64,000 nt of DNA from Panorpa germanica (lineage: Eukaryota; Arthropoda; Insecta; Mecoptera; Panorpidae): the NCBI GenBank assembly GCA_963678705.1, contig OY783203.1, positions 124,001 to 188,000 of the forward strand. The letters run 5' to 3'. A program made the position numbers and the translations under genes. Below, in pieces: positions 715-59,957 of the stretch. The notes beneath the pieces are model-generated. The model was given only the letters and a program-made list of their open reading frames with translations. It was not told the DNA's origin and did not search any database. Numbering within the stretch: position 1 is the stretch's first letter; each line of letters begins with the position of its first letter.

Positions 715-3700
715 GTAAGTTATTTTTCTAATGACTTTAAACAATAATCATTCATTTTTGTAATAATACTAAATTTTTTTGTTTTTAATCCATAATATGT
801 TATTTAATATTTTAAATTCCTATTGTTTCAAAACGGCACCGACCACTATTATCTCTTTTACAAGGTGTAATTATTTAGTAATCTGTTTACAAATTTTATT
901 CAAAGTGAAATCTTCTCAATCTATCAATTTAGTAACTTAAATTGCTAAATTAAATTAAATACCAAAGTAAATTTTGAGAATGTAAATACATTTCTTTTTA
1001 AAAGGCACTATGAATTTGACTGAATGAAATCTTCCACTACAAATTATTTTATTTTGATACTATTAATTAAAATATGTTTAAAAGGAGAATTTATTATTTT
1101 AGTGTTCAAAGATTACCATCTCGCTCAATGTCACTGCGGGAAACAAATAGAACATATGTTTTGAATAATTCTCAAAATGAATCTACAACCGATAGCAATA
1201 CAAGTATGGATCCCTCTAATACGAGTCATCCTCATGTCAACGTTCTTCATTATGAACATGAGCTATATGTAAGTTGTTAATTAGTGAACCGTATCAAAAT
1301 AGTTTTTTTTCTAAACTTAATAAATATTATTAAATTTTAAGTAACATAAATTAATCTTTATAATTAAACTATTCATTTCATTTGCGTGTGCTGTTAATAA
1401 AACGACGCAGAATTTCAAACTGAACCAAAGAACATTTTATTATTTCTTAACTAGTCAACTAGTCAACATATGAATTTAAATGAAGTTACATAAGATCTAA
1501 ACCTCTTTCTATGAAGTCAATTTCTCAATTATACATAAAACTGATTTTAGTGAGTTGTTCTTCCAATTATATTAGTAGTAAGAATATCATAGCGAGTAGC
1601 TACAGTAATTGTTCATATAAAAGTATCATTAATATATTTATACATTATTTGCTTAACATACTCGTCCATTTAATAACGTCCACATATATTCAACAGCAAG
1701 TTATCAGGATTCACAGGAAAACAGCTCGTAACTGTTATTTGTTTTATTATACGTGTATAATAAATTTTTCTCTTTAATTAAAATATTTTATCTTTATAAT
1801 AAATCCTAAATGATTCGGTGTTGTTTTGATTATTAACTATTCTTATCAGTATCGGCGATAAGATATACAGTTGCGAATCTTTAAAGGAATTCAATCATTA
1901 GTTGCAACAGATAAAGCAAAAATCAGTGAATTATGATTCGTTCTAAGAACTATTTATATAATCAAACTTAAAAATCTATGTAATAAAAAATGTTAGTGTA
2001 CGTAGTGAGCCAATTAATAACTCAACTAGAGGTAAACAAAGAAATCATTTATAAATATTATTTAGGTTTATAACTATTTTGTACTATTAGTAATTACTTT
2101 AAATAAGAGTTTATAGTATATAGTAAGAGATTACATTTTTATCTTCACAAATGTTCTGTGGAATTTTTAAGAAATTTTATAATACAATAACTTATTTTTC
2201 CTATTTATCTAAAGAATATGTATTTCAGATGAAAAATGAGCTCAGTGGTTCAAGAAAAAAGATCCCTCCAGAAGTTCCGAAAAGAACCTCTTCTATTTCG
2301 AATAGATCTTGTAAACCAAATTTGATAGAATGTCGTCTACCCTATGATCAGTCTAGACAGGCTTATGACCAAAGTAGTCCGAATTCTACACTAAGTCGGG
2401 GAACTTACGTAGATAACGTATTAATTCGACCAACATTGAGTGAGAATTCTTTGACTAGACCAACTGATAAAGGATTAACTTATATAGACAACCGTCAAAC
2501 ATATGGTCAGTGTTCCCAAGTACGACCGAATTTATGTGATTACACACATTGTAAACCAAATTTTTTAGAGAACGGATCAGTGTGCAGTGTTCAGTCTTCT
2601 GGAAGCGACAGTTCTATTCATTATGATACTTATGAACGGTAAATAAACAAGTTTACAATATTTTTCTTACCTTGAAAGTCATTTTGAATGTGCTTATAAT
2701 TACTAATTACTTTTTAAATTTGTAGAGGATCTGCATCCCCAGTGTGGAAGAAAATTGATCAAGGGTCAAATAGCGATTACAGTATACAACCAGGTAACCA
2801 ACATGTTACAATATCTTATAATTATAATATTCTTATTAATTAGTTCCCTAATTATATAATTTAAAATTCGATGTATGTTAATAACAGTCATTATATTATT
2901 CCTGTTAATTTATAGAAATTGAAATAATAAAAAAAAATAACCATATTCTAACCAATTTTAGGAAACTCACCGAACGTGACATCTACGCAACAAACTAATT
3001 ACAAAACCAATGAGACAATTCGAAAAAGACAATATCGAGTTGGATTAAATTTATTCAACAAAAAACCGGACAAAGGAATTCAATATCTTATCCAAAAGCA
3101 ATTTCTTGAAAATTCTTCCCATGCCATAGCTAAATTCCTCATTACAAGAAAGGGACTTAGCAAGAAAATTATTGGTGAATTTCTTGGTGACTTGCAAAAT
3201 CCGTTAAGTCAAAAAGTACTAGAGGAATTTTCAAATCACTTAGATTTCGTTAACATGGAACTCGACATCGCTCTAAGAAAATTCATGAGCTTTTTTAGGA
3301 TTCCCGGTGAAGCTCAGAAAATTGAAAAAATTATAGAAATATTTAGTAAGCGGTATATGGCTTGTAATTTTGAGATAGTAGACAAATTTCAAAATGCTGA
3401 CACTATTTTTATATTAAGTTTTGCTATTATAATGCTAAACACTGATTTACATACACCAAATTTAAAATCAGAAAAACGGATGAAACTTGAAGATTTTATA
3501 AAAAATTTGCGCAATATTGACAATGGTAGAAATATTGATCGCAGTTTGCTTGTGGGAATATATGAGCGTGTTAAAGCAAATGAATTCAAGTGCAGCTCAG
3601 ATCACGTAACTCAAGTTATGAAAGTACAGCAAACAATTGTTGGAAAGAAACCTAATTTAGCATTAACGCATCGAAGACTGGTTTGTTACTGTCGTCTATA

Positions 3701-5838
3701 TGAAATACCTGATCTAAATAAAAAGGAACGAATTGGCGTAAGTAATTTAAATTATTGAAAATAATGTATCCCTAGTTTACATTCAAGTATTTAATATTGA
3801 CTTGTTATTATTATTGACAGGTCCATCAAAGGGAAGTATTTCTCTTCAACGACTTACTTGTAATTACAAAAATATTATCCAAAAAAAAGAATTGCGTTTC
3901 TTATACATTTAGGCAAAGCTTACCATTAAATGGAATTAATGTTGGACTTTTTGAAACTTCACGTAAGTGTTTAATTATTTTTTTATTTAATTCGTTCAGT
4001 TGATCCGGAATAGGTAGCCACTGGTGACCTTATTATAGTTTTACAAATAGATAGTATTTACTTAATATTTATAGAGGAGAAATGTTTGAAGGTAAATATT
4101 ACAAAATACGGCTGCTTCACCGGAGCTCTCACGGTTGGGGTCGAAGTAAATTGTAATTAAATATAAATGAATTTAAAAGGTTTTGAGAGATTTCAAAATA
4201 TTTATTCTCCTCAGCCTATTTATTTCTCCAAGAGGTCTGCATGATAAATATAGCTAATTTTGTATATACTTCTCACCATCTTCTCATTCACTCACCTTCT
4301 CATCATAAACGATATGTAAATATATGATCAAAATATTAAAATATGCTTACAGATTATTCTTTTGGAATTCGATTATCACAAAGAGTGGATGGGAAAGTAC
4401 TGATTACTTTTAATGCACGCAACGAACATGACAGAATTAAATTTGCTGATGATCTAAAGGAATCCATATTGGAAATGAATGAAATGGAGAACATTCGAAT
4501 TGAAAACGAGTTAGACCGACAAAAACGGAACAACAGAAATGGTGAGGATAAAAGTTATATGGACAGGCCCTCCAGATAATTTAATTTCAATAAAAAATTA
4601 CTCTAAGTCTGTCCATCGTTTAATTTTAATAATAATTTTTAGAAATAACATCGAAATTATAATATTAGTTTATTTGTAATTTATATGCGATAATTTTAAT
4701 TCAGGTTCCGAACCAAATCGGGATAGCGGTGTTGCTGATTTATGTAATTGTCAAGCAAATGTCAATCAATATGCTAGTCATCATAACATGTCACCACCAA
4801 TTTGTCAGTGCCAGCCATCAGTGTCAGCAAGTGTTAATAATGTCAATCAATTTGGGTCAAATGTAGTTCATAACGATCAACAATTGAAAAGATCTGCTTT
4901 AAGCAATTCTCTGTTAGATATGCATGAACAACGTAAGTCAATATTTTATCAAAATATAATTCAAACATAAGTTAAAGAACTCATATTTAAGACAATATTC
5001 TTATGTTCATTAGATACTCATAGTTAATTTGTAGTAGTAAAGAAATTATATATTAACTATAGAAATTGCATAATCACTGACAAATGACACAATTTTTGTG
5101 TAATAATTAAAAAATAACTAATTTCAAATAATTCTTTTTTTTAATATCTTATACTTATTTGCTTAAGAATTAATATTTCATAGAATTGTTTAATTCTTTG
5201 ATATTGAACATAAAAAAAACTTATTATATTTAAAATAAAAATATGAATAAAATTAAAACTTATGAATTGTAAATATTTGATATACATTCTTATTTTTAAG
5301 TTGAGTTTTCATTCAATTATTCAAGAAGTATTTCCATATAGCATAGTAAATAGCAATTTTTTTTATTATTTTAAGTTTTAAATAATTAATAGAGAATGCA
5401 GAATAATAACATATCAATATTTCATTTACAGTTTGTGATTCTCACAAACAACGACGAGGTTCAGTTGGATCATTGGATAGTGGAATGTCTTTATCGTTTA
5501 CATCTAGTTCACATCGGCACCATCAACAACAACACCAAAATCAACAGCATTACCACATGCAACAAGGTCCTGGTGTTTATCAACAGCAATCAACCAGCAT
5601 GTTGCAGCAACAAATGTTTTCTACAATGCAATCACTACCATTTGTGAATATATCGTCTATGCAACAGTTTCCGCAGTATAAGCAATCTCTCCCTCAGTTC
5701 ACTGTGCAACAACAATTTCCAAACCAACCGCCTAATATAGAGTACAGACAACAGCAACAACAACAAGTTGGAAATATTGTGTATCAACAAAATCAACAAA
5801 AGCGTGAAAGGAAGTTATCTAGATCTACTGAAGTTTAA
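628..5838 (+). CDS. siz: schizo/IQSEC Arf guanine-nucleotide exchange factor, 5'-partial
   Basis: Seen: nine exons with GT-AG borders that join in frame: 628-714, 1103-1268, 2229-2638, 2726-2793, 2962-3737, 3821-3962, 4353-4541, 4705-4932, 5432-5838 (TAA 5836-5838). They encode about 823 residues. In order: an IQ-like motif, a Ser/Pro-rich linker containing [12 protein letters not shown], a Sec7 domain with the catalytic glutamate in RIPGEAQK, a PH domain, and a His/Gln-rich tail. Known: IQSEC/schizo proteins use Sec7 to swap GDP for GTP on Arf GTPases (mainly Arf6), PH to bind membranes, and IQ to bind calmodulin. Drosophila schizo (loner) acts in myoblast fusion and axon guidance. The first exon starts on the third base of a codon, so at least one coding exon lies left of the window. 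The exon joins come from splice signals and family similarity, not transcript data. Confidence 0.95.
1103..2793 (+). CDS. siz: schizo exons 1103-1268, 2229-2638, 2726-2793: linker before Sec7
   Basis: Three exons encode a low-complexity linker rich in Ser, Asn, Thr and Pro. The best conserved piece is [16 protein letters not shown] at the start of the second exon, which is a hallmark of IQSEC proteins between IQ and Sec7. Repeated Tyr-Asp-Gln and Arg-Pro-Asn/Thr patterns follow. Phases run 2/0, 0/2 and 2/1, so all joins stay in frame. Confidence 0.88.
2962..3737 (+). CDS. siz: schizo exon encoding the Sec7 domain and start of PH
   Basis: This 776-bp exon carries the whole Sec7 catalytic domain. 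It begins at [20 protein letters not shown]. The glutamic-finger motif FRIPGEAQK has its catalytic Glu codon at 3309-3311, and the second conserved motif, LNTDLHTPN, begins at about 3435. Both are intact, so the exchange activity should be functional. The exon ends in [19 protein letters not shown], the first strand of the PH domain. Acceptor is ATTTTAG at 2961 and donor is GTAAGT at 3738. Confidence 0.96.
3821..4541 (+). CDS. siz: schizo exons 3821-3962 and 4353-4541: PH domain
   Basis: These exons encode [16 protein letters not shown] and then [20 protein letters not shown], matching the body of the IQSEC PH domain. An acidic and basic helical tail rich in Glu/Arg/Lys follows. The 390-bp intron between them holds a stop-rich AT sequence with no conserved exon. 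Confidence 0.93.
4705..5838 (+). CDS. siz: schizo exons 4705-4932 and 5432-5838: C-terminal tail
   Basis: The first exon ends in [16 protein letters not shown], the conserved post-PH motif of IQSEC proteins. The last exon opens with [16 protein letters not shown], also family-typical, then turns into a His/Gln-rich region with many CAA/CAG codons and ends at TAA 5836-5838. The Gln-rich part is probably disordered. Confidence 0.92.
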
Positions 5839-6959: not shown

Positions 6960-8700
6960 GCTTTCTTTTTAAATAATAATTATTATTATTTTTAAATAAT
7001 AATAATAATGTGTTTAATTTTTTAATTGAGCTATGTCCGCTACATTTTTAATTGATAAACTGCTTCATTAAATTTCCAATATCCACGCTTTTCTGGCTTT
7101 TTTGCAATCTTTTCTCAATTCATAAGATTTTTTTAAAAAGCAAAATATTTTTTTCTATAATATATATTATAAATTTTATGTTTATATATTGCAGAATAGA
7201 AGACGGTATAGAACTCATAAAGGGACAACTGGTACTATGATAACTTCACACAGACCCTGATGTGTTCGTTATTTTATAAGAAATGTTATGCGTTGGACTG
7301 TACATATTTCAAACAGACGCCATTTAATCCAGGTACTAATTTAGGGAGAGCTATTTAAGTGCCCTAGAATATATTGAATAAAAAAAATTAAATTATCTTG
7401 TTTAAAAGGAAAATAAAATGATCACATATAAAAATCAAAGAAAGAAATATTTATACTTGCCTTTTAAATTGATTTCAGTTAGAATTAAAAAATACTTCAG
7501 GTTACCCATTAGAAGATTTAGATCTCTTATATTAACTAGAGAAATAATTAAATATATATTTTTAAAGATAAAATCAGGAAAATATGTAATGTACAAAAAA
7601 ATGATAGAGTTTTGAGTCTTTGCTTTAGATTACGTTGAGTATTTCAACAAAATAACTTAGCTTTTAAAAAACGCCTTCAATGAAACTTCTGAATAAGGCT
7701 CTTACTAATATACATATTTATCTTAGTTCTCTGACGTCTATATCTGAATTTAATGCAAATGGCTGCCGTACTGTCATATTTCTAAATGGTTATTATCAGT
7801 TATTATATATATTATCTTTGAGATGCTTTGATACACTTTGATAGAAGATTACGAGTGATTACGAGGAATTGTAGATCGGAATAAACTTATTAAAATAGGC
7901 AATATGAAAGATAAACATTAAGTGTAACAACACACGTGAAGAAAAGTATAAAGGTAAACATATAAGTTATAATAACATATAATATTGGTCTTTGTTGTAT
8001 ATACTTGATGCAAATTTGATAAATCGTTTAGAAAAATGTAAAGATCTGACACTGGATGTCATTCTCCATACATAGAATTTATTAAAATAGTTTAACAACA
8101 TCTGATTCTTTTAACAACATATTCTTAAAACAGAAAGAGTATTTAAGATTAGAATTAAGATGTGAATTATCGCTGTTGTGTTTGTCTTGTAAATTACAAG
8201 TTAAATGTATAATAAAAAGTATATTAAACAAATATTTAATATCCAAAAAAAATATAAACTTAAAACTAGTAGTGTTAATTTCTGTGGTCGCCATCTTTGT
8301 TAATAAAAAGAATGGCCGAATTCTTTAGCTCGTGATATTTTTAAGCAAATGCTTTGAGTAAATGTAAGGAAGTGCTTCACTATTTATGAATAATTGCTAT
8401 AATTAAGTAATATTATTATTGTATTGATAAATCAAATTCGTGAAACGTGCAAGTGTTCAAATATATTTTCTGTGAAGTTCAATTAGGGTTATGTCTAATA
8501 ATAATGTTTTCTTTCTACTTGTAATGTTATATAGATTTGTTATTGTACATTACTAGCTATGTATAATCCTTGGTTCATTAATCATTATTATTTCTCCTTA
8601 GTAAAAAAATCTTTGTTTATTTAACAATGTTACATAATTATACAAATAATTTCCTATTTTCTATTGGATTTCTTATTTAAATTCTCTGTGTTAAATGTTA
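6960..8700. other. Intergenic, nothing supported
   Basis: AT-rich sequence with short random open frames only. No conserved protein, RNA gene or clear terminal repeat was seen. Confidence 0.5.
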
Positions 8701-8724
8701 ACATTTATTTTCTTCTTGTTGTAG

Positions 8725-10133
8725 TTGCAAGAACTCCAGCAGCTATTGGAACACTATAATGCACTGTGAGGTAGATGTTGTGGAGGACCTTATTTTAAAG
8801 TTTCGCTGTTAATTTCGCTATTATGGATGGATTATTGCCTTTTAAGTAAGTTTATAGTTTGAATAATATTTTATCTATAATACATTTAGAGTTTACAACC
8901 ATCGTAACAAAGTAATACATTCTAATTTAGAAATTTATATAAAGGTTTAATAAGATGCTCCAATGGTAATTCTCTCCCAAAAGTAAACACCCTTATTGCA
9001 AAATTCATTTTCTAAATTTTTTTATTCATATTCTTGTTCTATAATTATCTAAAAATAACTGGAAGTAGTTAGATCAAATATTGGGGAAACTTTTGGTTTG
9101 GACATTATTACATCAATTGCCTGACGACTAACGTTAGACTTATAAATTGTCTTTATTAAGGAGGTACAGGACGTACCGTCAATGCAAAAAGTTTATCTCC
9201 CGGTAATACGAAATGCAAAATACGAAGTACATGAAGGACGAGCAAATATTGGGACTGTACTTTTGAAAATGAATTTTTCAATTCCCTATTAAACTGCTTT
9301 TTGCTTGTTAAAATGATTTTTTTTTATGCAAATAATAGTTAAATAAATGATAAATTACCTATGATTAATATCAAATTTATATTAATTCAATTTAAATTCA
9401 AATTAAATATTTTGAAAGGGAATAATAAATTTTGCAACGCTGCAAATTTACGTGTGTTGAAGATGCATGCTTCAACACACGTAAATTTTGGTTCTTTCAC
9501 CAATAAATTGTTATATTTTATATAATATTTATTCCGATTTTGAATTTTCCGCTCAAATTGGCATTTGCAACGTTGCCGGCTTATAACCTACATTTACTGT
9601 TTCTTAAAGGTTTTATTTAAATATTTTCGTATATAGGTATCCTTTTGACAATTTTCTTTTTGCAATAGTTACAGAAAAGATTATTTTATATACACCTAGT
9701 TTTTGAAAGCCGTGTTACCATTTTTTTTATAGTTAAATTATATTATGTGGTGAAATTGAGCTAAACATTATGATTTGTATGGAAAATGACTATTTTTAAT
9801 CATGTATAAAAAGAAAACTATGAACCCTAGGTCTCTAAAATTTTGAGACAGCATGTATTTTAATTATTTGTATCGACCCTCCAAATTTCACAACGTTTTC
9901 ATCATTTATGTTAAATCCTGTACCTCCTTAATTAATACAGTTTAATTAAGACGTGATTTATGGAAATTACAATAGCTCTTTTGTCTAGTAGTGGAAAAAG
10001 TATTTAATTTTCCGAAAGAATTTGTGTTATAATTTTTTCTGTATAATATAATTTTTTCTTTGTTCTAAGGTTTTGTCGCTGGAATGTTGGGTGTAGTACG
10101 AAGTGGCGCTCTACAATTTATGGAAATAGATGA
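8725..10133 (+). other. Candidate two-exon transcript with a 28-codon small ORF
   Basis: A strong acceptor (TTCTTCTTGTTGTAG ending at 8724) and a strong donor (GTAAGTTT from 8846) bound a candidate exon, 8725-8845. It holds an ATG at 8823. A second strong acceptor (TTTTTTCTTTGTTCTAAG) ends at 10069. Splicing 8845 to 10070 gives a frame starting MDGLLPFKFCRWNVG and stopping at TGA 10131-10133. The TTAA transposon at 9156-9931 lies inside the proposed intron. No homology was recognised. It could be a lncRNA or chance. Confidence 0.22.
9156..9931. mobile_element. Non-autonomous transposon with TTAA target duplication
   Basis: Inverted ends GGAGGTACAGGA (after TTAA at 9156-9159) and TCCTGTACCTCC (before TTAA at 9928-9931) bound about 770 bp with no transposase frame. 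A 19-bp inner inverted repeat with a 7-base loop lies at 9444-9488. A TTAA duplication is the habit of piggyBac-type elements, although the end sequence is not the usual CCC start. Confidence 0.7.
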
Positions 10134-10139
10134 AGAAAT

Positions 10140-11170
10140 GAAAAATAGATAAAGTTAATCGCTGCTTCATCAACAGCATATTGTTATCAAGTAATTCGGG
10201 CACGATTACAAGAACTCCAACAATAGCCTGGCGTGTTTTACATTGTATTAATGAGACTTGGAGACAAGAAGACGTCAGAGATTTTTGAGTAGATTTAGAG
10301 TAATTAATTTATGTCTAAATGGAATGATTAGAAAGAATTTTTATGACCAAAGGTGGATAGTAAACGAAAAAGCTTGAAAAGTATTAGTAACTGGATTCTT
10401 TCAAGATAAAATATGACACAGTTTTTAATGTTTGTAATGTCAAAAGGTTTTCTTATTTTTTTTTTTAAGTATTTTGATTATACAATAGTTTAATTGTTTT
10501 CCATGTTTATTAAAATATTTGCTACTTAAACAACATTTTACTTGGTAAACATAATTAAATGAGTTTTGTCATTTCACACAGTAATTTATATTATTCTTAA
10601 TATCAATATTAGTGCTGGTTGTTAATTTATAATATTGTATAATTTATATACTTATGGAAAATGGATTAACTTGATGAGAAACTATTAATTACTGCGTTTG
10701 TTTGGAACAAAGAGATGAAAATAATAGTTCAACAATAAATAAATACATTTAGAATATTATCGAAGAAGTATTAAATAAAAAGTGCATACTTATTATTGTC
10801 TAAAGTATTTATTATTGAAATATCAAAAATTTGAACTGTAATTTATTATAAATCTTTCTGCTATTGAGAAAGTCCTTTACTAATAATTCAATGAAACAAA
10901 TTTTATACTATTAAATTTGAGATTATAAAGTAATTGTTGCAATATATAATTGCAGTAATATTTGTTATAAATAAGAAGTTGAATAATCATTTGAGATGCA
11001 AATTGGAAACTTTCAAACATCATCTTAACGATGTAATAGTTTAAAGAGCAGAAAATAATTTTAAAATTTAATCCATGACTGATAATTTATTTAAAATACA
11101 AAAGTAAAATTTGTTTCAATTTATAATTGAATTATTAATGTGGTATTAATATAATACTTGACTGTGTTAA
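10140..11170. other. Intergenic, nothing supported
   Basis: AT-rich sequence. An AATAAATAAAT stretch near 10735 could be a poly(A) signal for the weak transcript upstream. No other feature was seen. Confidence 0.4.
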
Positions 11171-11173
11171 GTT

Positions 11174-11218
11174 AAAAACGTTTTAATAATTTTAATATTT
11201 AATTATTAAAACGTTTTT
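11174..11218. repeat. Perfect 18-bp hairpin
   Basis: The arms at 11174-11191 and 11201-11218 (AAAAACGTTTTAATAATT and its complement) are separated by 9 bases. It may be the end of a small element. Confidence 0.7.
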
Positions 11219-11269
11219 AGTATGCAAAGAAAGTCGTTAAAAAGAGACCTGTGAAAAGTAGTTAAACTT

Positions 11270-11890
11270 GGATTTATAGTCCTCATTTTTTAGTGGTCGA
11301 TTTTTCAATTGCTGATTGAAATTGATGTTAATAAATGTGTATTGGCGTGTCTATTTTATTAAATATCTAAATATTGACGGAAATATAGCAATTGAAAGTT
11401 TGAATTGTAGTTTTAGCGCTAGAAATGGTCGGCCATATTTGTATGACGTGAAATGCATTTTAAAGTCAGTTATTTGTTGAGTAGATCAGTGCTGTGGTAA
11501 TGTTTTGCAGCTGTTGGTAGTCAAATAATCAAGTCAAATCAAAGAATAATAAGTTTTTATTTTATTTAACCCTGTTAAGGCAGACATAATATTGAAATTT
11601 GATTGTTCCTTGAAATAGCTGTGAATAATATTTGATATTTTGATATATAAATACATATAGCAGAGATTTATGAGCTGTAAGGTTAGTAACCTTACACAAG
11701 GATTGTGATGTCACATGCACTTGGTACATGTGTACAACGTTGAATCCCTTTAATAATTAAAGAGACAAAATAACTTTTTTAATTGTTAATATCTTCTAAC
11801 ATATAAGGAGTTATTAAAAAATAATTGAACATTTGAGGTTCTAGTAACCCACTTTATCAATATATAGTACACTTTTATAGAAATTAAGAC
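11270..11890 (+). repeat. Dispersed repeat, long copy (related to 18425-18570)
   Basis: Two separated blocks match 18425-18570 on the same strand: one around GATTGAAATTGATGTTA (about 11314) and one running from TTTAATAATTAAAG (about 11749) through CTAACATATAAGGAGTTA to TTTATCAATATA. In the other copy the two blocks are fused, so that copy looks like a deletion derivative. Confidence 0.6.
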
Positions 11891-12246
11891 ATAAGACACA
11901 AGCCCATTAGAACATTATTTTTAATATAGGAGAGCCACAGCGAAAATAAAAATATAAATCCAAGTTTGATTTCCTAGCAAATTTCCATTGACATACAGAG
12001 ATAATATTATCTACAAAATGACACCATTGACAAAATCATTCAATCATTCGTCATGTTTCAATAAAGTACAGATCTAGTGCATTTGTTGTTCTTGTTGTTG
12101 TTGTTAAAAGATGAAAAATGAAGTTATTGAAGAATTTATAGTTATTGTAAAATAAAATGGAAAAGCGAAATTATATTATAGGATAGTTGTTAAAGAATTG
12201 TAAAATATGTAATGCAAAATGTTGGTAAAACGTACATATTGTTTAA

Positions 12247-12925
12247 AGTGAAAATAACTATTGAAATTGATGCACTTAAATAAAATATATATTATATTAA
12301 TATGTCCGTATGCCAATACATACATTGTAAAAATAATGGACATCAATTGTGACATTTTTTGAGGTATGTAAGGAAAACAAACAGACAAATTTTAGAGTAA
12401 AATTTGCAGAAATCATTTTCTTTATGATGTTTTTAATTTGTAAGTTTACAAAATGTTTTCATTACTTGATAGGTGGTATAATTTTCACCTTTACATTCCG
12501 AGAAGCCGATATTTTTTGGCAGTCATCTAAAACTAAATTTAAAATGGTGGCCATTCCAACAGGAGAGGTAATGGACCCTCCCCACATGTGGGTATTTTTA
12601 TCCTGTTGGAATGGCCACCATTTTTAATTTAGTTTTAGATGACTGCCAAAAAATATCGGCTTCTCGGAATGTAAAGGTGAAAATTATACCACCTATCAAG
12701 TAATGAAAACATTTTGTAAACTTACAAATTAAAAAGATCATAAAGAAAATGTTTTTTGCAAATTTTACTCCGAAATTTGTCTGTTTGTTTTTTTCGTTTT
12801 CCTTACATACCTCAAAAAATGTCACAATTGATGTCCATTATTTTTACAATGTATGTATTAGCATACGGACATATTAATATAATATATATTTTAATTGAGT
12901 GCATCAACTTTCAATAGTTATTAGC
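12247..12925. repeat. Giant near-perfect palindrome (foldback element)
   Basis: The left arm (about 12247-12563) reappears reversed at about 12597-12925. Both strands therefore encode almost the same open frame of about 70 residues beginning MTFFEVCKEN. The centre is a spacer of about 33 bp with its own CCCCACATGTGGG dyad. The arms differ by only a few substitutions and short indels, which suggests recent origin or conversion. There is no transposase and the frame resembles no known protein. Confidence 0.9.
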
Positions 12926-12954
12926 AGTTTATTATATATTATTTTATTTTATGT

Positions 12955-13236
12955 CTCGTATAGATATGTATATATATATTTACATATAGATATGGATATA
13001 TATATATACATAGAGATATGTATTTATATACATATAGATATATATATGTATTTATATACATATAGATATATATATATATACATATAGATATATATACATA
13101 TATATATATATATATATCTATCTATATGTATATAAATACATATATATATCTATATGTTGGTTTCCCCTCCCCTACAACAAAAAAAAAAAAAAAAAAAAAA
13201 AATATATCTATATGTATATAAATACATATATATATC

Positions 13237-13268
<32 letters not shown>

Positions 13269-13345
13269 GATATATGTATATATATACATAAGTATATATA
13301 TATATATCTATATGTATATATATACTTATGTATATATGTAAGGTA
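12955..13345. repeat. TATATACATATAGATA microsatellite with poly(A) core
   Basis: Irregular TA/CATA/GATA repeats run on both sides of a unique CCCCTCCCCTACAAC stretch and a 30-base poly(A) (13171-13200). The two flanks are roughly inverted relative to each other (…ATCTATATGTATAT… and …ATATACATATAGAT…). Confidence 0.9.
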
Positions 13346-13464
13346 TGTATGTTTCGTCGGTTTGAGCTTTAAAATAAACATAATACTAATATTATAACTG
13401 TATGTGAAACAAATTAAAATGTTTTATTTGTTAGCGAAAAGAGCAACCAATCAGAGTGGTTACA

Positions 13465-13890
13465 CTCTTATAACACAGGTGGTAGAAGTTTTTATCCTAG
13501 ATTACAACCACTTACTTTCGTTTCACTTTTATAACATAGATGACGCCAGGTATTTATCTAATAATTAAACCTTATATTTTCCTCCGCTTTATAAGAGATG
13601 GCAGAGTTGCTTAGCAAAGATTTCAACCAGTTTCATTTTGGTTCAGCTTTTATAATTTAGATGGAGATAGTTATCTATCCTAGATCATAACCCTTTACTC
13701 AATAGTTTATGTTTTATAATATAGATGGCGATAGTTATCTATCCTAGATCATAACCCTTTAATCATTAGTTTATGTTTTATAATATAGATGACAATATCT
13801 TAGTCATAACTCTTTTGCAATTTGGTTCCGATTTCGCAAAATAGATGGCGGTAGTTGTGGTTCAAATGCATTTAAAAATATGGCGACATT
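13465..13890. repeat. Diverged tandem array of about 64-bp units
   Basis: About seven units each begin TTTATAAYATAGATGGCG and many contain TATCCTAGATCATAACC. The best pair starts at 13648 and 13712, exactly 64 bp apart, and the next unit starts at 13776. The outer units are much more diverged. Confidence 0.8.
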
Positions 13891-14030
13891 ATAATTAAAA
13901 ATTAGCGAAATTAAAGTATATATACTATGTTGCAATGGATATATCCTCAGTGTAGCGTTAGAGCTACTCGAGTAAAGGTCAGGGTAGGCGTCGCATTTTT
14001 TTTTTTTTGCGTATTAATTAAGTATGTCAG

Positions 14031-14280
14031 TTAAAATTGTAAAGCCTAACGGCTTTACAATTTTAATGTAGTCGCCGAAGGCGACTACATTGCAGCCTCC
14101 GGCTGCAAGGCAATCGCGAAGCGATTGCCAAAACGTTATTACATAGCATCCGAAGGATGCTATGGCAAACGCGGAGCGTTTGCCTAATGCCCGCAAAGCG
14201 GGCAGATGCCGAAGGCATCCATAATATATAGTATATGTATAGGCCTACCTTCGGTAGGCCTATACATATACTATATATTA
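14031..14280. repeat. Array of nine different perfect hairpins
   Basis: Nine perfect stems stand almost end to end: 14031-14066 (16-bp stem, TAAC loop), 14065-14091 (12, GAA), 14091-14107 (7, TCC), 14109-14129 (9, GAA), 14142-14164 (10, GAA), 14164-14184 (9, GGA), 14188-14204 (7, AAA), 14205-14219 (6, GAA) and 14222-14280 (28, TTC). Eight have three-base loops. Each stem sequence is different, and the array is far more GC-rich than its surroundings. One strand is open for about 60 codons, but this is a by-product of the pattern. Confidence 0.95.
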
Positions 14281-14400
14281 ATATCGTCTAACAACATATA
14301 TATATACCTCGTCTGACAATATTATATATATATTTCTATAATGTATATATAAATACTTATGTAAAGGAAACTATATTCAAATATAAGTTTTTTTCTTTTC

Positions 14401-14645
14401 TAGCAACCGAGCCCCGTGGCTCAAAGCTAGCGTCGTTGCCTCGTAACCTTGCGGCCCTGGGATCGTATCCCGGCCGGACCATATAAACTAAAAAAAAAAA
14501 TGCTGCGACCCCCCACGACCGTCCCCGCCGCATCGAACGCCAGCGTACACACCGACCCACCACCCCCCACCGTACATACCCCACCATGCCACTGGCACTG
14601 CGCCCATACAAACCGTGCAAAAATATACCCGGCGAAAATAATATA
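14401..14645 (+). mobile_element. tRNA-derived SINE-like element
   Basis: TGGCTCAAAGCTAG (14416-14429) resembles a pol III A box. GGATCGTATCC (near 14460) resembles a B box inside a pairing GGGATCGTATCCC arm, followed by GGCCGGACC. Spacing fits a tRNA-related head. It continues into an unusual C-rich body (CGACCCCCCACGACC and similar) and ends in T/A-rich sequence. It cannot be a working tRNA because no clean acceptor stem is visible. Confidence 0.6.
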
Positions 14646-14649
14646 AAAA

Positions 14650-15200
14650 TCTATGACAACCTTTTGCAATTTTTTTTAATAAAAATTTTTTTTTTTTAAA
14701 TTTTTTTTATTACATTTAAATTTTTTATGTACAATGTACAATATACATTATATATAATATACTTTTTATAAACTTACAATTTTTTTATATTCATTTTTTT
14801 TTTATATATATTATATACATAGGCAAAACATTTATAAATTAAACTTTATTTATTTAGAAACTTGTATATTTCAATGTTCCGAAGAAGCAACGAAGATTCC
14901 GATGTCAGTCCACTGAAATTAAAAAAAAAATTCTAATCAACATGTTGCTATTTGCTATTCGAAGTTTTTGTCAGTAGCTAGTCTGAATATTTTTCATTGA
15001 AAAAATATTGACTGACACAAACATATTGATTAAATATTTCATTACTTTTTGACATGCTAATAGTATCTACTATTGAGTGTGGGGTGAATCAAATATATTA
15101 TATTATAAAATGAACATAGTTACTGTATGAATCATATATTATAAATGGTTCATTATTCTAAAATATCTGTTTCATCTGGCATAAAAGCAATAGAAATAGC
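14650..15200. other. Intergenic, AT-rich, nothing supported
   Basis: Poly(T)/poly(A)-rich sequence after the SINE, possibly in part its tail. No gene was seen. Confidence 0.4.
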
Positions 15201-15217
15201 TCGTCAGAACAAGGAGG

Positions 15218-15636
15218 CTCTCACACTGGAACCGTGTAGTTGAAACCTCCAACATTTCAGTAGGGTGATCGCATAAGTACATTAATTACGAGAGGAGTTT
15301 CTACTTTAATGTTTATCAATAAACCACTGAAGTATGAAGTACCGTAGAAATATGTATTTCATTCGTACGTATATCAAAGTACCGCATTACGTTCTACTCG
15401 CCGTCGAATATATCCGAGCATTCTTGCAAACATACAACTTCGTACATAACGTGAGCGGACAACAGACAGTGGATTTGGATTGGACACATTTTTATTAGCT
15501 ACAGTACAGTGATGTATTGATAAACATTTAAGTAAAAGATTCATCTCATGGTAAAGTGTACTAATGCGTAACAACTGAAATACACCTTACTGAAAGAAGA
15601 GTCGGCATTGCAAATAGTCGGTTGCAGTGTGAGAAC
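15218..15636. mobile_element. MITE with TCTCACACTG ends
   Basis: The ends CTCTCACACTG (15218) and CAGTGTGAGAAC (to 15636) are inverted. Subterminal TTTAATGTTTATCAATA near 15309 is mirrored by GTATTGATAAACATTTAAG near 15514. There is no coding capacity. Similar pieces recur at 16149-16395 and about 16690. Confidence 0.65.
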
Positions 15637-15647
15637 AGCTTAAGGTC

Positions 15648-16395
15648 GGTCTCACACTGTAGTCTACTACATGCAACGATGGCTATATTTTGGAGCAGGG
15701 CTTATTCGAGTTGTTTCCCATTAGTAAACTGTTTCACTAGATGACCTTTAATATTTACGAACACATAACTGTATATTTGTACTCTAATGTCAGCCCTGTA
15801 TTGCTTTTACCTCTCACCGTTTCGCTCATATCAAATAATAAACGCAATGATGTCATTGACACTGCTCACGTCATTTACGTAGATGCATGATCCAACATTG
15901 TTGTGATCTATGCAACATGAAGTACATCTCCTCACGGCACTTTGATATCCAGACGTAAGAAATACATACAGTAGTATATTAACAGACATGTTAGGCACAG
16001 AGGTTTATTATAATATTCATTTCACCCCACTTAAGAACACAGCAAACTGTTAGACAGAATAAATCACTCAAATATACATTTTACATCTGGCTAAATTATA
16101 AGACAGTCTATTGGAAATACACAGACGTAAGCTAGACAAATTATATATGGTCTCCCTCACATTTGCTACTATATCAGTAGAGTGTAGATGCATTAGTACT
16201 TTAATGTTTATCAATATACCACTGTTGCGAAATAATCATCAGTTCTTACGTCTGTGATTATATCACAACAGGAATGTATTGATAAACATTAAAAAATCTT
16301 CATCTTATGATAAAGTATGCTAATGCGAACATCCCAAATACCGTACTGAAAAAGACGGAGTCAAAAGTAATCCATACCAGTGTGAGAGAGCCTTA
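15648..16395. mobile_element. Second MITE unit(s) of the TCTCACACTG family
   Basis: GGTCTCACACTG near 15649 and CCAGTGTGAGAGAG near 16380 could bound one 750-bp copy. A shorter copy may instead run from about 16149 (CTCCCTCACATTTG). The inner pair TTTATCAATATACCACTG and GGAATGTATTGATAAACATT near 16207-16290 is shared with the copy at 15218. Confidence 0.5.
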
Positions 16396-16689
16396 GACTA
16401 TTCATTCAATATTATTTTCACAAATCCAAATACATGCAATACATAACAGACTTAAAATACAGCGGCCTGAGAAACGAATAAGCATAGAACAGAAATATAT
16501 AATAATAAATTTTGCCTGAAGTTATTTTCTTCTAAAATGCTACAGATGCTTTAAAATGGACTATAAATAGAAGAGACATATTAAGAAATAGGGGAGGAGG
16601 CATCTCACATTCATCCCTCTATTCACACAAGATTTTAACTATTAAAATGATGTAGGGCGTAGTAAAGTTAGTACACTTCATCAGAAGAA

Positions 16690-16770
16690 GTTATTCTATT
16701 TTAATGTTTATCAATACACCACTGCGTCAAAAGAAGTATCTATTTCATTCGTTCATGATTATAAATTGGT
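16690..16770. repeat. Fragment of the same MITE family
   Basis: TTTTAATGTTTATCAATACA followed by CCACTG and TATTTCATTCG matches the inner part of 15218-15636. The outer end was not found. Confidence 0.5.
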
Positions 16771-16939
16771 TCATTTGTACGTAGATCAGAATACTGCCTT
16801 CTTTTTATACGGGTCAGCTGCACGTACAACATAAAACATACAATATACTGCATAAAGGGAAGGCGGCACTTTGTACTACATACGTATGAGCCATAAAATA
16901 AACGGCCGTATAAAACACACACTTCTAATGGCACTGACT

Positions 16940-18420
16940 ATTGAACTACAGAACACTACAAAAAGAAATAAATATCAAAGAAATTTTCACTAAGTGGGCA
17001 AAGAGGCTATTATCCAGAGGCGGATTCACTAAATCAATCTTTAACAAAAATGCGCTGCATAGAATTTACATTTACTAGTTTAATAATGAAAGGGTTCAAA
17101 ATACTTTGAAGAATAATAACTGGTAAAAATGCATAACCAAAATATATCTGTGTACTAAAGTTAATTGTTAATTATAAAAACTACGGGATCTGAAAATTTA
17201 AAAGTGCCACGGGCCTATGCTGTGGAAGTGAAGGCGGACCTGTTGTTTTATAAATATACATGGGACAACATCTATAAGTGCCATTATTAACCTGTCGTGG
17301 CCACACAAAACAAACAAACAAGTTATAGAATATATGACACCAACCTTTTTGAAGATGTTTTGTATTTCGAAGTACACCAGGAGGTCGATGACAACTCCAG
17401 ACTGCATACTCCAATGACCGAACTGCAACAACGAAGGAATGTCACATTAACACATACTCGTATATAGACATTGCACTGACACAGATATGAGCAATAAAAA
17501 GTTATTTTAATTTCCAATTAATTTATAATGCAAAACTTTTATAAGCTTTTACTTTAATCACTAATTATCTATAAGCGTATTCCGCCATTTTACTTTTTAC
17601 AGAAAAAACGAAACTAAACACCAAAAAAAAATGCATTTTATTTGTTGAAATGCAAACTAATTTAAAAAGCAAATCTTTTATAAGTTAACGATTGTCTTAA
17701 ATAATAGAAAATTAATAATTTCACTAAATTTAAATGTATAGAAATATTTTCTAACACGGTCGTTTATTCAATCACAAACCACTTGATATAGAGTGTCACA
17801 GACTGTCAACTGCTGTCAACTATGAGCAAATCAATGGATCTTTTAAGACGGGAAAAACGAAATAGATATACTAATAGATATACTATCTCTTTCCACCCAA
17901 CAACCATTTTGACGTCCGTATTTTACATGCTTTGACATGAGGTGAGGTTTGTGAATTCAATTGAATTCAATACTGCATGCTTGGGTACACGATTTCATAC
18001 TTGTTCTGATTGAGATAGTTTGTTTAAGAAAAGATGAATATTACTTGAATAGGTGTTCCTTTCACAAATGAAATGTATGACTGTAAAACGGAACAAGGTA
18101 ATATTCAATTTCTGTTGAACAAGCTATGTCGAAAGTGAAATGAAAGAAAGGGATGATAAAGAATGATACAGGAGGGAAAGAGATAGTTAGCCAACAACAG
18201 TGGTTTCTAACCTTTTTAGAAACTAATTTTAATTTAAAATAAATTTGTGGACCATGTATAATTTAATTATCTATATTAATATTATGGTATATCGAAATTC
18301 CTAGTTTTATTATCTCACGGCATAAAGGTTACAAGCCGCTGGAATATTTTCTTCACATTAAATTAAAAGTTGTGACATATACGTCCATTGCATTGGCATT
18401 GTCAAATGTTAAAAATCAAA
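16940..18420. other. Intergenic, nothing supported
   Basis: Mixed-composition sequence with no open frame above about 80 codons that resembles a protein, and no clear repeat boundary. Confidence 0.4.
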
Positions 18421-18424
18421 ATAC

Positions 18425-18570
18425 ATAGGTTTCTCATTTTTTGGGAGTCGATTGAAATTGATGTTATGAAATGCTTTTAATAATTAAAGGCAAAAAATTG
18501 TTTTTTTAATTGTTAATATCTCCTAACATATAAGGAGTTACAACTTTATCAATATATTGCACAGTTTTAC
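18425..18570 (+). repeat. Dispersed repeat, deleted copy (related to 11270-11890)
   Basis: Contains GATTGAAATTGATGTTA directly followed by TTTAATAATTAAAGGC and CTAACATATAAGGAGTTA. These blocks are about 430 bp apart in the copy at 11270-11890. Confidence 0.6.
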
Positions 18571-18599
18571 AAAAATTAGCAGAATGCAAATTATTACCT

Positions 18600-19870
18600 C
18601 TATAATATAATAATATTTATATTATTAATAAAAGAATTTTGTATTTCATATGTCCGTATTTGTGGCTACTACAAATTCCAGCAAGACTACCTAAGGCAGA
18701 CTAGACTATCGATAGATAGACTAGTAAGCTCGTTAACAGTAAAAACTTAGTATACAAAGTAAGTTTTAGTTCAAATTGAGTCCTTACCTGTCACAGATTT
18801 TGTGTAAGTTGTCAGAATTATTTTCAAAATAATATCCAGTGGTGATACAATGCCAGATGCCTTCTGCTAGAAGTTCTTAAAAAATTAGACAAAACTATGT
18901 CATAGTAGCAAGCCTAAATTATATATATGTTGCTTAGGGTACTATTTTAAGATCTTCTGTAAGTTGCCAGAATAATCCGATGGACCATATCCCGCCTGAC
19001 GCGATAAGCAATAATCAATTAAAGACTTGCGCCCTATTATTAATACCGAAGTAATATAGAACGACAAGTATTTTTCGGACAGCTCGGGAGGAAGCAGATG
19101 AGGATGTTTTCTTGGAAAAATTTCCTACTACTTCCATAGAGCATCCGACGGAACTCGAAAACTATTCAACGATGGTTTCTTCAGCACAAAATACAGAAAG
19201 CAGCGTGAGAAACAATTTTGTGAAGTCAGCAACCACATCGATTTTAAATAATAATTTTAATATTCGATAGTTTGGTTTTATTCTCTGTATCGAAATATAT
19301 CTATACCATAATATTGTTAAAAAAAAAGAAGTCAGGTCTCTCGTCTGATCGAGTAATGTCGATGTCGATGTCGAATACTTAATATTGGACAAATGTGTAT
19401 TGGAGTTCATAATTTACCTAAGGTGTTTTTATTATAATTCATTGTCAATATACCTTACTTTACTTTTAAGTAGATAGATTTGTAAAAATTAGAAACTTGT
19501 TAAGTTATATTAAAAGAAATAGTAATAAAGAAGTAAATTTATTAAGCTATATTAAAATAAATCTATCTTAAAGTGAATTAATAATTATGAATAAAACAAA
19601 TGACAATGACAATTTAGATCTAGGGATCTGTTTATCACCAATAAACGCGAAATTAAAATATACGCATATCACGTACATACGTGGAAAGTAACATTTATTT
19701 ATCAATGACGTATATTTATTGGGTAAAATGAAACTAATCAAAGTTATTTTTACAGTGCATAAAGATGTATTTATTTCTTCATGTACAGGCGCGACTTAAA
19801 GTTACATCATAATAATATAATAAATTTGAAAATAATAACGTTTTATGATATAACCAGACATAGCACAATT
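18600..19870. other. Intergenic, nothing supported
   Basis: No gene or element boundary was recognised. A run of GATAGATAGACT near 18710 is a minor simple repeat. Confidence 0.4.
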
Positions 19871-59782: not shown

Positions 59783-59957
59783 CTCGGAATTCGAGATACC
59801 CAGCTGTAAGTCTGTAAATACTTGTATATTGACACCTAAAAGTTGTCTCAAAACCTACATATGGTAGACATCCTACCATATGTAGGTTTTGAGACAACCT
59901 TAGGGTGTCAATATACAAGTATTTACAGACTTACAGCTGGGTATCTCGAATTCCGAG
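59783..59957. repeat. 175-bp near-perfect palindrome
   Basis: Two arms of about 85 bp start CTCGGAATTCGAGATACCCA and meet at a 5-base centre, ACATC (59868-59872), flanked by CATATGGTAG. Only about two positions differ between the arms, one of them near GACACCTAAAAG. It is non-coding. Confidence 0.92.

Follow-up and report, generated by a model that had tools for sequence, protein, structure and literature searches.

The 64,000-nucleotide stretch analysed here (the window) carries a chain of nine perfect hairpins at 14031-14280, and this array is one copy of a dispersed repeat family within this insect genome, often near chromosome ends. The hairpin arms stayed matched while the surrounding sequences drifted apart. 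The family is a dispersed repeat element of a known sort with an unusual structured core, the hairpin chain. We consider it about evenly balanced whether the array forms the structured core of a dispersed non-coding element of ~1.5 kb, enriched near chromosome ends, in which the hairpin chain acts as DNA.

A chain of nine perfect hairpins

The stems measure, in order, 16, 12, 8, 9, 10, 9, 7, 6 and 28 bp, and all nine loops are closed by a C-G pair. Eight of the nine loops have three bases, the first hairpin carrying TAAC. None of the hairpins is assigned to a strand. The chain opens with hairpin 1 (14031-14066; 16 bp, loop TAAC), for which copies have TAAC or TGAC, equivalent to GTNA on the other strand, followed by hairpin 2 (14065-14091; 12 bp, loop GAA), hairpin 3 (14090-14108; 8 bp, loop TCC) and hairpin 4 (14109-14129; 9 bp, loop GAA). 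The sole long unpaired stretch in the chain is the linker AAAACGTTATTA (14130-14141, plus strand), and a similar AAAA(C/T)GTT is found in many of the copies inspected. Beyond it lie hairpin 5 (14142-14164; 10 bp, loop GAA), hairpin 6 (14164-14184; 9 bp, loop GGA), hairpin 7 (14188-14204; 7 bp, loop AAA), hairpin 8 (14205-14219; 6 bp, loop GAA) and hairpin 9 (14222-14280; 28 bp, loop TTC). The loop of hairpin 7 is GAA in L134-L136, GCA in L137 and AAA in L138, while that of hairpin 8 is GAA in L134-L136 and inverted, as TCC, in L137 and L138. Hairpin 9 is the final hairpin of A-type copies that retain the right part, and its TTC loop corresponds to GAA read from the opposite strand.

A preliminary description had reported nine perfect inverted repeats in this interval, eight of them with three-base loops including four GAA; all were found, and the loops were counted as claimed. 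The stem lengths given there agree with ours except at 14090-14108, where the stem is 8 bp and not 7. The accompanying statement that no two stems share a sequence needs one amendment: the stems are mostly distinct, but hairpins 4 (GGCAATCGC) and 6 (GGCAAACGC) have 8 of 9 pairs in common and are one matched change apart. With its nine different stems the window array is, as stated at the time, not a tandem repeat, nor does it qualify as a tandem satellite, although B-type copies do repeat a 116-bp five-hairpin module.

Chains expected by chance were scored with stems of at least 6 bp, loops of 3-4 bases and gaps of up to 15. The longest such chain comprised three hairpins in 60 second-order Markov copies of the window and two in 2000 Markov copies of the array, and the window outside the array contains chains of at most four hairpins, which are AT-rich. 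When folded as DNA the array reaches -102.4 kcal/mol (z -20.4), with none of 200 shuffles equally low. The array is far beyond chance and is not contamination, a chance origin being ruled out by the Markov copies and shuffles. A single perfect 26-bp stem with a 5-base loop is located elsewhere in the window, at 59842-59898.

A dispersed family often near contig ends

The window corresponds to C21:124001-188000 of a 464-Mb assembly in 249 contigs. Its genes are animal: an exon encoding Sec7 and IQ_SEC7_PH (2952-3758) is presumably part of schizo/IQSEC, and the minus strand carries KH and ankyrin exons of a gene we take to be mask/ANKHD1. The search of the whole assembly for similar chains proposed in the preliminary description recovered the dispersed family. 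A 300-base query gave 97 matches (40 of 50 candidates scored), with five further copies 96-99% identical across nearly the whole query and a sixth 96% identical over 210 bases. Similarity to L134-L139 and L146 extends in pieces across much of window 8353-18661. Older copies share a common unit from ~-700 to ~+820 around the TCAGTG anchor (13947), at ~61-69% identity to the window. Searching the genome with a 22-base leader pattern recovered 56 sites, compared to 0 for the reversed-pattern control. An LTR pair was rejected, as no two of the 56 leaders lie less than 10 kb apart.

Distances to contig ends were determined for the 53 leader copies on contigs of known length (3 copies on C15 and C18 were excluded). 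It was found that 16 of the 53 lie within 250 kb of a contig end (1.2 expected) and 25 within 1 Mb (4.6 expected), counts that are not independent given related copies such as L160/L161 and L157/L159, which are nearly alike. Under uniform placement, 16 copies within 250 kb were reached in 0 of 20,000 trials. The nearest leader copy is located 4.7 kb from a contig end, and 28 of the 53 are more than 1 Mb away. Eleven copies are located no more than 120 kb from an end, and 9 of them point away from it. Many copies are block duplicates, and hence do not represent independent insertions.

B-type copies contain the five-hairpin module in tandem, replacing the A-type right part, and have 7 to 25 hairpins per fetched stretch at 14 loci, mostly near contig ends. 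Chains of 8-15 hairpins were present in 16 of 20 ten-kb loci, the others being L140 (4), L148 (3), L147 (2) and L150 (1). Joins inside the array are seen at five of these 20 loci (L139, L147, L148, L149, L150): A-type hairpins give way to B-type within the array in L139 and L149, L148 diverges within the array from its 99.9% identical partner L149, and L147 and L150 are truncated within the array. Several loci, including L143, L146, L149 and L153, contain repeated sets of hairpins. Across the window and L134-L153, 158 such hairpins occur in 6.8 kb of arrays, compared to 2 in 255 kb of surrounding DNA.

Anatomy of the repeat unit

In window sense, the unit consists of upstream tandem repeats, TATATATA, ~30 bases, TCAGTG, the leader stem, a T-run and the hairpin chain. 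The upstream tandem repeats (13440-13860, plus strand) have a GATGGCGATAG core, show a period of 64 at 13648-13791 and differ in number among copies. A ten-copy alignment reveals that TATATATA (13917-13924, plus strand) is conserved, and its sequence suggests it may act as a TATA box. The conserved leader (13947-13995, plus strand) begins with TCAGTG, presumably resembling an arthropod initiator, and includes a stem formed by GTAGC (13952-13956) and GCTAC (13963-13967). One pyrimidine/purine pair of this stem is C-G in 44 and T-A in 12 of the 56 copies, with neither C-A nor T-G observed; the leader pattern admits just those four combinations. A T-run (13996-14008, plus strand) leads from the leader to the array and varies in length in the ten-copy alignment, being interrupted in some copies.

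A-type copies that keep the right part continue from the 28-bp hairpin into an AT spacer, a tRNA-like stretch and a C-rich part downstream. The tRNA-like stretch (14409-14478, plus strand in the window) has A-box-like and B-box-like parts by eye; ARAGORN, run on the window and on ten copies, reported no tRNA gene. AATAAA is found downstream in several A-type copies. Comparisons of 14 copies with the window place the approximate right limit of the common unit in AT-rich sequence at 14724-14789 (unstranded), the exact base being unfixed. Nine of the 14 comparisons stop at +777 to +842 from the TCAGTG anchor, those with L139, L148 and L149 stop inside the array, and those with L136 and L146 run further. 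On the left, a truncated remnant of an inverted terminus, TCGTCGGTTTGAGCTTTAAAATAAACATAAT, is located at 13353-13385 (plus strand); by eye this sequence forms the left end of the older copies L142, L151 and L153 and, inverted, the right end of L174-L179. Inverted terminal sequences are found on opposite sides of different copies.

The unit is adjoined in the window by a foldback repeat (12244-12931) with arms of ~420 bp that are 89.5% alike and separated by almost no spacer. Pieces of this repeat are also present in L134-L139 and L174.

Matched arms

A mismatch-tolerant scan of 34 arrays (L150 excluded), which can miss short mismatched stems, found 402 of 411 hairpins to be perfect. The 4170 stem cells comprise 4161 Watson-Crick, 9 mismatched and 0 G.T pairs. 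Because the scan can miss short stems with a mismatch, we added a reading in which one arm is fixed and the other read. Of the 404 sites obtained, 360 are perfect, 25 have one mismatch, 3 have two and 16 have at least three; we attribute these 16 to truncated ends or wrong anchors. Within the group of 28 carrying one or two mismatches, A.C occurs at 17 sites and G.T at 3. Seven of the A.C cases arise only because hairpin 8, with its 6-bp stem, was read with a core exceeding it by one pair. The 31 mismatched pairs (2830 cells) are outermost in 13 cases, inner in 15 and closing in 3.

Individual palindromes were also searched across the whole genome. Allowing up to 2 mismatches, TGGCAATCGC has 18 sites (control 0), of which 10 are perfect, 6 differ at the outermost pair only and 2 carry an exactly matched double change. 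For CATAGTCGCC, 78 of 111 sites within 2 mismatches are perfect, the 33 imperfect sites being unlisted.

The preliminary description had also proposed looking for compensatory changes in the stems of related species; between copies within the genome, the arms do change in pairs. For hairpin 9, 13 copies provided 7 distinct sequences. Among these, nine pairs differ on both arms and 0 on one arm only, a result not equalled in any of 500 shuffles, and 99% of cells are paired (two cells unpaired) versus 90% in shuffles. Six of the nine changed pairs include a pair reversal, for which no passage through a wobble pair is possible. An alignment of the B-type module (143 nhmmer hits) mixes registers and was hence not used as a pairing test; it comprises 3570 Watson-Crick, 73 mismatched and 19 G.T cells, and the ATAGTCGCC stem within it is perfect in 72 of 72 cases.

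Loops

The 391 triloops consist of 210 GNA, 84 TNC, 48 ANA, 27 TNT and 22 others, such that 294 are GNA or its complement TNC. Of the remaining 97, 75 (ANA, TNT) are one CpG transition from GNA or TNC. All four bases are found at the middle position. The loop-side base of the loop/stem CpG is changed in 75 of 369 classed loops, and the closing left base is not C in 4 of 391 triloop hairpins. With one arm fixed, the loop base is changed in 79 of 368 cases versus 3 closing mismatches in 388 sites. Loop changes are frequent and closing mismatches few, indicating that stems are protected where loops are not. GNA loops form unusually stable DNA mini-hairpins. In the available text of two studies, sheared G-A loops are described as resisting single-strand nucleases (PMC4513846, PMC7205883).

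To orient the 14 B-type arrays, we used the sense of their TGGCACCC loops. All classed loops share one sense in GTCGCC (70/70), in AAACGC (20/22, 2 unclassed) and in GCACCC (49/54, 5 unclassed), the last being the same hairpin type used for the orientation. The sense is mixed mainly in AATCGC (30 vs 37) and GATGCC (46 vs 12). Free loop flipping, considered as a candidate, proved to be partly a product of aligning both strands, since oriented arrays display a mostly fixed sense per type.

Discussion

If the hairpin chain acts as DNA, palindromes that become single-stranded or extrude as cruciforms would fold into short stems, mostly with sheared G.A (GNA) triloop caps, and one arm could then template copying of the other by short-range template switching. 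Such arm-to-arm switching predicts perfect arms, simultaneous double changes without an intermediate wobble, and loop inversion. In yeast, one paper describes homogenised arms and inverted spacers, among them a change of ttc to gaa (PMC8604942), and another presents template switching as both source and keeper of RNA hairpins (PMC8794818). Because template switching leaves the confinement of the hairpins to the element unexplained (158 in 6.8 kb versus 2 in 255 kb), we add a favoured structure: GNA-capped hairpins may be favoured by selection or by ease of folding. The joins within the array at 5 of 20 loci and the repeated hairpin sets suggest in addition that the arrays could be points of breakage and exchange, with modules duplicated, lost or swapped between chromosome ends. 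The hairpin chain may be used in some molecular step. The original proposal of repeated self-copying of DNA, or of selection for structure, is supported by the perfect arms and paired changes. Against the templating model, loop inversion is limited and the sense is fixed in most hairpin types.

It is alternatively conceivable, although unlikely, that the array is a multi-copy structured non-coding RNA gene, with perfect stems reflecting selection on the transcript's rod of hairpins. The TATA-like box, leader and tRNA-like part suggest a transcript, and this leaves room for an RNA role. The T-run, the covariation of the leader stem and the downstream AATAAA of several A-type copies are in keeping with such a gene, as is the folding of the plus strand as RNA (z -19.2). 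In its favour, too, many of the 33 Rfam matches below threshold at E up to 10 in the window are miRNA models on hairpin 9 (best E 4.2e-5, 35.6 bits compared to a gathering score of 79); against it, Rfam has 0 matches in the window at the gathering threshold. DNA is nevertheless favoured over RNA because G.T is rare, being absent from the 4170 scanned stem cells and outnumbered 17 to 3 by A.C at the anchored mismatch sites, because hairpin 9 changed on both sides only and several of its pairs are reversed, and because in 111 of 369 classed loops it is the minus strand alone that has the GNA type, a feature that RNA made from one strand would not require.

The chain could also be a cis part of mobile element transposition or replication, bound or copied each cycle through a foldback or single-stranded intermediate; we regard this as improbable. 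The unit limits recur at unrelated sites, copies are present on many contigs, and the inverted terminal sequences suggest a mobile unit. However, the 30 sites of the terminal pattern (up to 1 mismatch allowed) include no unit with both termini, no target-site duplication could be fixed and no transposase was found, the longest ORF of L176-L179 being at most 126 aa. A truncated array does have an open 561-aa ORF beside it (L150:4844-6526), whose DUF4218 match falls below cut-off, but just three C2 copies of this ORF adjoin any of the hairpin matches listed. A CACTA-like owner of the array was rejected on these grounds, and since the 99% identical ORF copy at C7:11065495 has no neighbour among the hairpin matches listed. 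Helitron pieces (Helitron_like_N, PIF1) flank the 561-aa ORF beside the truncated array in L150:4400-9901.

The position of many copies raises the question of chromosome ends. A five-fold pattern of TTAGG, TCAGG, TTGGG or TCGGG gave 3 single 25-base matches in the whole genome and 5 for the reversed control. No telomeric arrays are assembled, unless the search passes over them, and the assembly may lack ends. Long arrays of the sequence that forms the final 400 bases of C1 are present at the C20 end and at 15.29-15.30 Mb of C15 (11 of 417 candidates scored). By eye, this repeat also makes up the final 400 bases of C17 and is absent from both ends of C21, the C3 start and the C12 end. Some insects, such as Chironomus, end their chromosomes in long satellites. 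A speculative and quite doubtful reading is that, after loss of TTAGG arrays in this insect, subtelomeric GNA-capped hairpin chains would help to keep or copy the ends, by routes such as fold-back priming or break-induced exchange. This would be a eukaryotic convergence with the linear chromosomes of Streptomyces, whose ends carry hairpin chains.

A purely mutational origin, with functionless chance palindromes perfecting themselves by template switching, appears very unlikely. Perfection and inversion of short palindromes by template switching are indeed described in the available text of PMC8604942 and PMC8794818, but the hairpins are concentrated in the arrays rather than in neighbouring DNA, and the G..A and C-G closure is retained around a variable middle base.

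Insertion of organelle or symbiont DNA, the second option of the preliminary description, is highly improbable. Short palindromes are reported from organelle genomes of Volvox, placozoans and sponges in the accessible portions of the literature, and the resemblance to organelle GC clusters noted at the outset holds in shape, but goes no further. The 56 leader copies are instead spread across many contigs of the same genome, chromosome-sized ones among them, with identities graded from 99% down to ~61-69%. A 21-base junction pattern has 0 matches in genome_contigs and one 21-base hairpin has 0 in viral_contigs, while phages (1 record) and plasmids (16 records) gave short matches only, covering 7-13% of the query. 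The best match of a single hairpin to plasmids is 24 bases (E 0.07); given that just 12 of the bases in a 21-base hairpin are free, we judge such matches to be due to chance. Palindromes are difficult to sequence and the analysis used the assembly only, but an assembly or library artefact has negligible probability, as a single artefact cannot yield copies 61-99% identical at distinct loci with matched changes, and the adapter or contaminant named as possible refutations does not fit a dispersed family of graded divergence either.

Returning to the reading of a DNA hairpin chain maintained by templating, the Streptomyces telomere is the nearest architecture. As described in the available text, it too has several short palindromes nearly end to end, many with GNA-type sheared G:A loops, and compensatory changes in some palindromes (PMC4513846, PMC7205883). 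A bacterial pattern scan, used for shape only, returned at least 118 stretches (125 loci scored, best 25 of 125 inspected). Among the matches listed, 6 of 7 Streptomyces loci (L012, L057, L077, L079, L097, L109) have 3-6 triloop hairpins with GAA/GCA or TTC within ~210 bases of a contig end, as expected of telomeres. The insect array has in common with these a palindrome chain with predominantly GNA-type loops (294 of 391 GNA or TNC). In contrast to the bacterial telomere, which sits at the very end of a protein-capped linear molecule, the insect copies are internal and merely end-enriched: the nearest of 53 lies 4.7 kb from a contig end, and no hairpin chain was seen by eye in the 400 bases at each of six contig ends. 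The two may thus at most work alike; by its position, the array is not a member.

Organelle palindromes (Volvox, sponge RHE, placozoan SIR) are described in the accessible text as having, like the array, short stems and small loops in mostly non-coding DNA, and two types of sponge repeat differ by complementary substitutions. According to the same partial sources, Volvox loops have 3-5 bases, mostly TAAA/TTTA, placozoan loops 3, and the sponge palindromes described, which include double and multiple hairpins, 7. These repeats comprise few hairpin families scattered singly or in small groups, whereas here different hairpins follow a set order in a nuclear unit, on chromosome-sized contigs and not in organelle DNA. 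Quasipalindromes homogenised by template switching share the perfect arms, paired changes and spacer inversion, but the cases in the available text are single palindromes (PMC8604942, PMC8794818), in contrast to the chains observed here, which count 8-15 hairpins at 16 of the 20 long loci and 7-25 at the 14 short ones. Among the results listed by an open-access full-text literature search, there was no account of such chains in an animal nuclear genome.

With dozens of loci and hundreds of hairpins, and with loops and flanks as built-in controls, the family offers a natural laboratory for palindrome perfection. It helps to separate DNA-level templated correction from RNA selection, and makes template-switch rates measurable between copies. 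In addition, it brings a chain of hairpins close to chromosome ends in an animal with no canonical telomere arrays in its assembly.

Hairpin chains were also observed in two gut Clostridia contigs, with 8 short perfect hairpins at L089:5140-5322 and 7 at L055:5330-5498. The hairpins in these chains lie ~20-28 bases apart and have varied loops.
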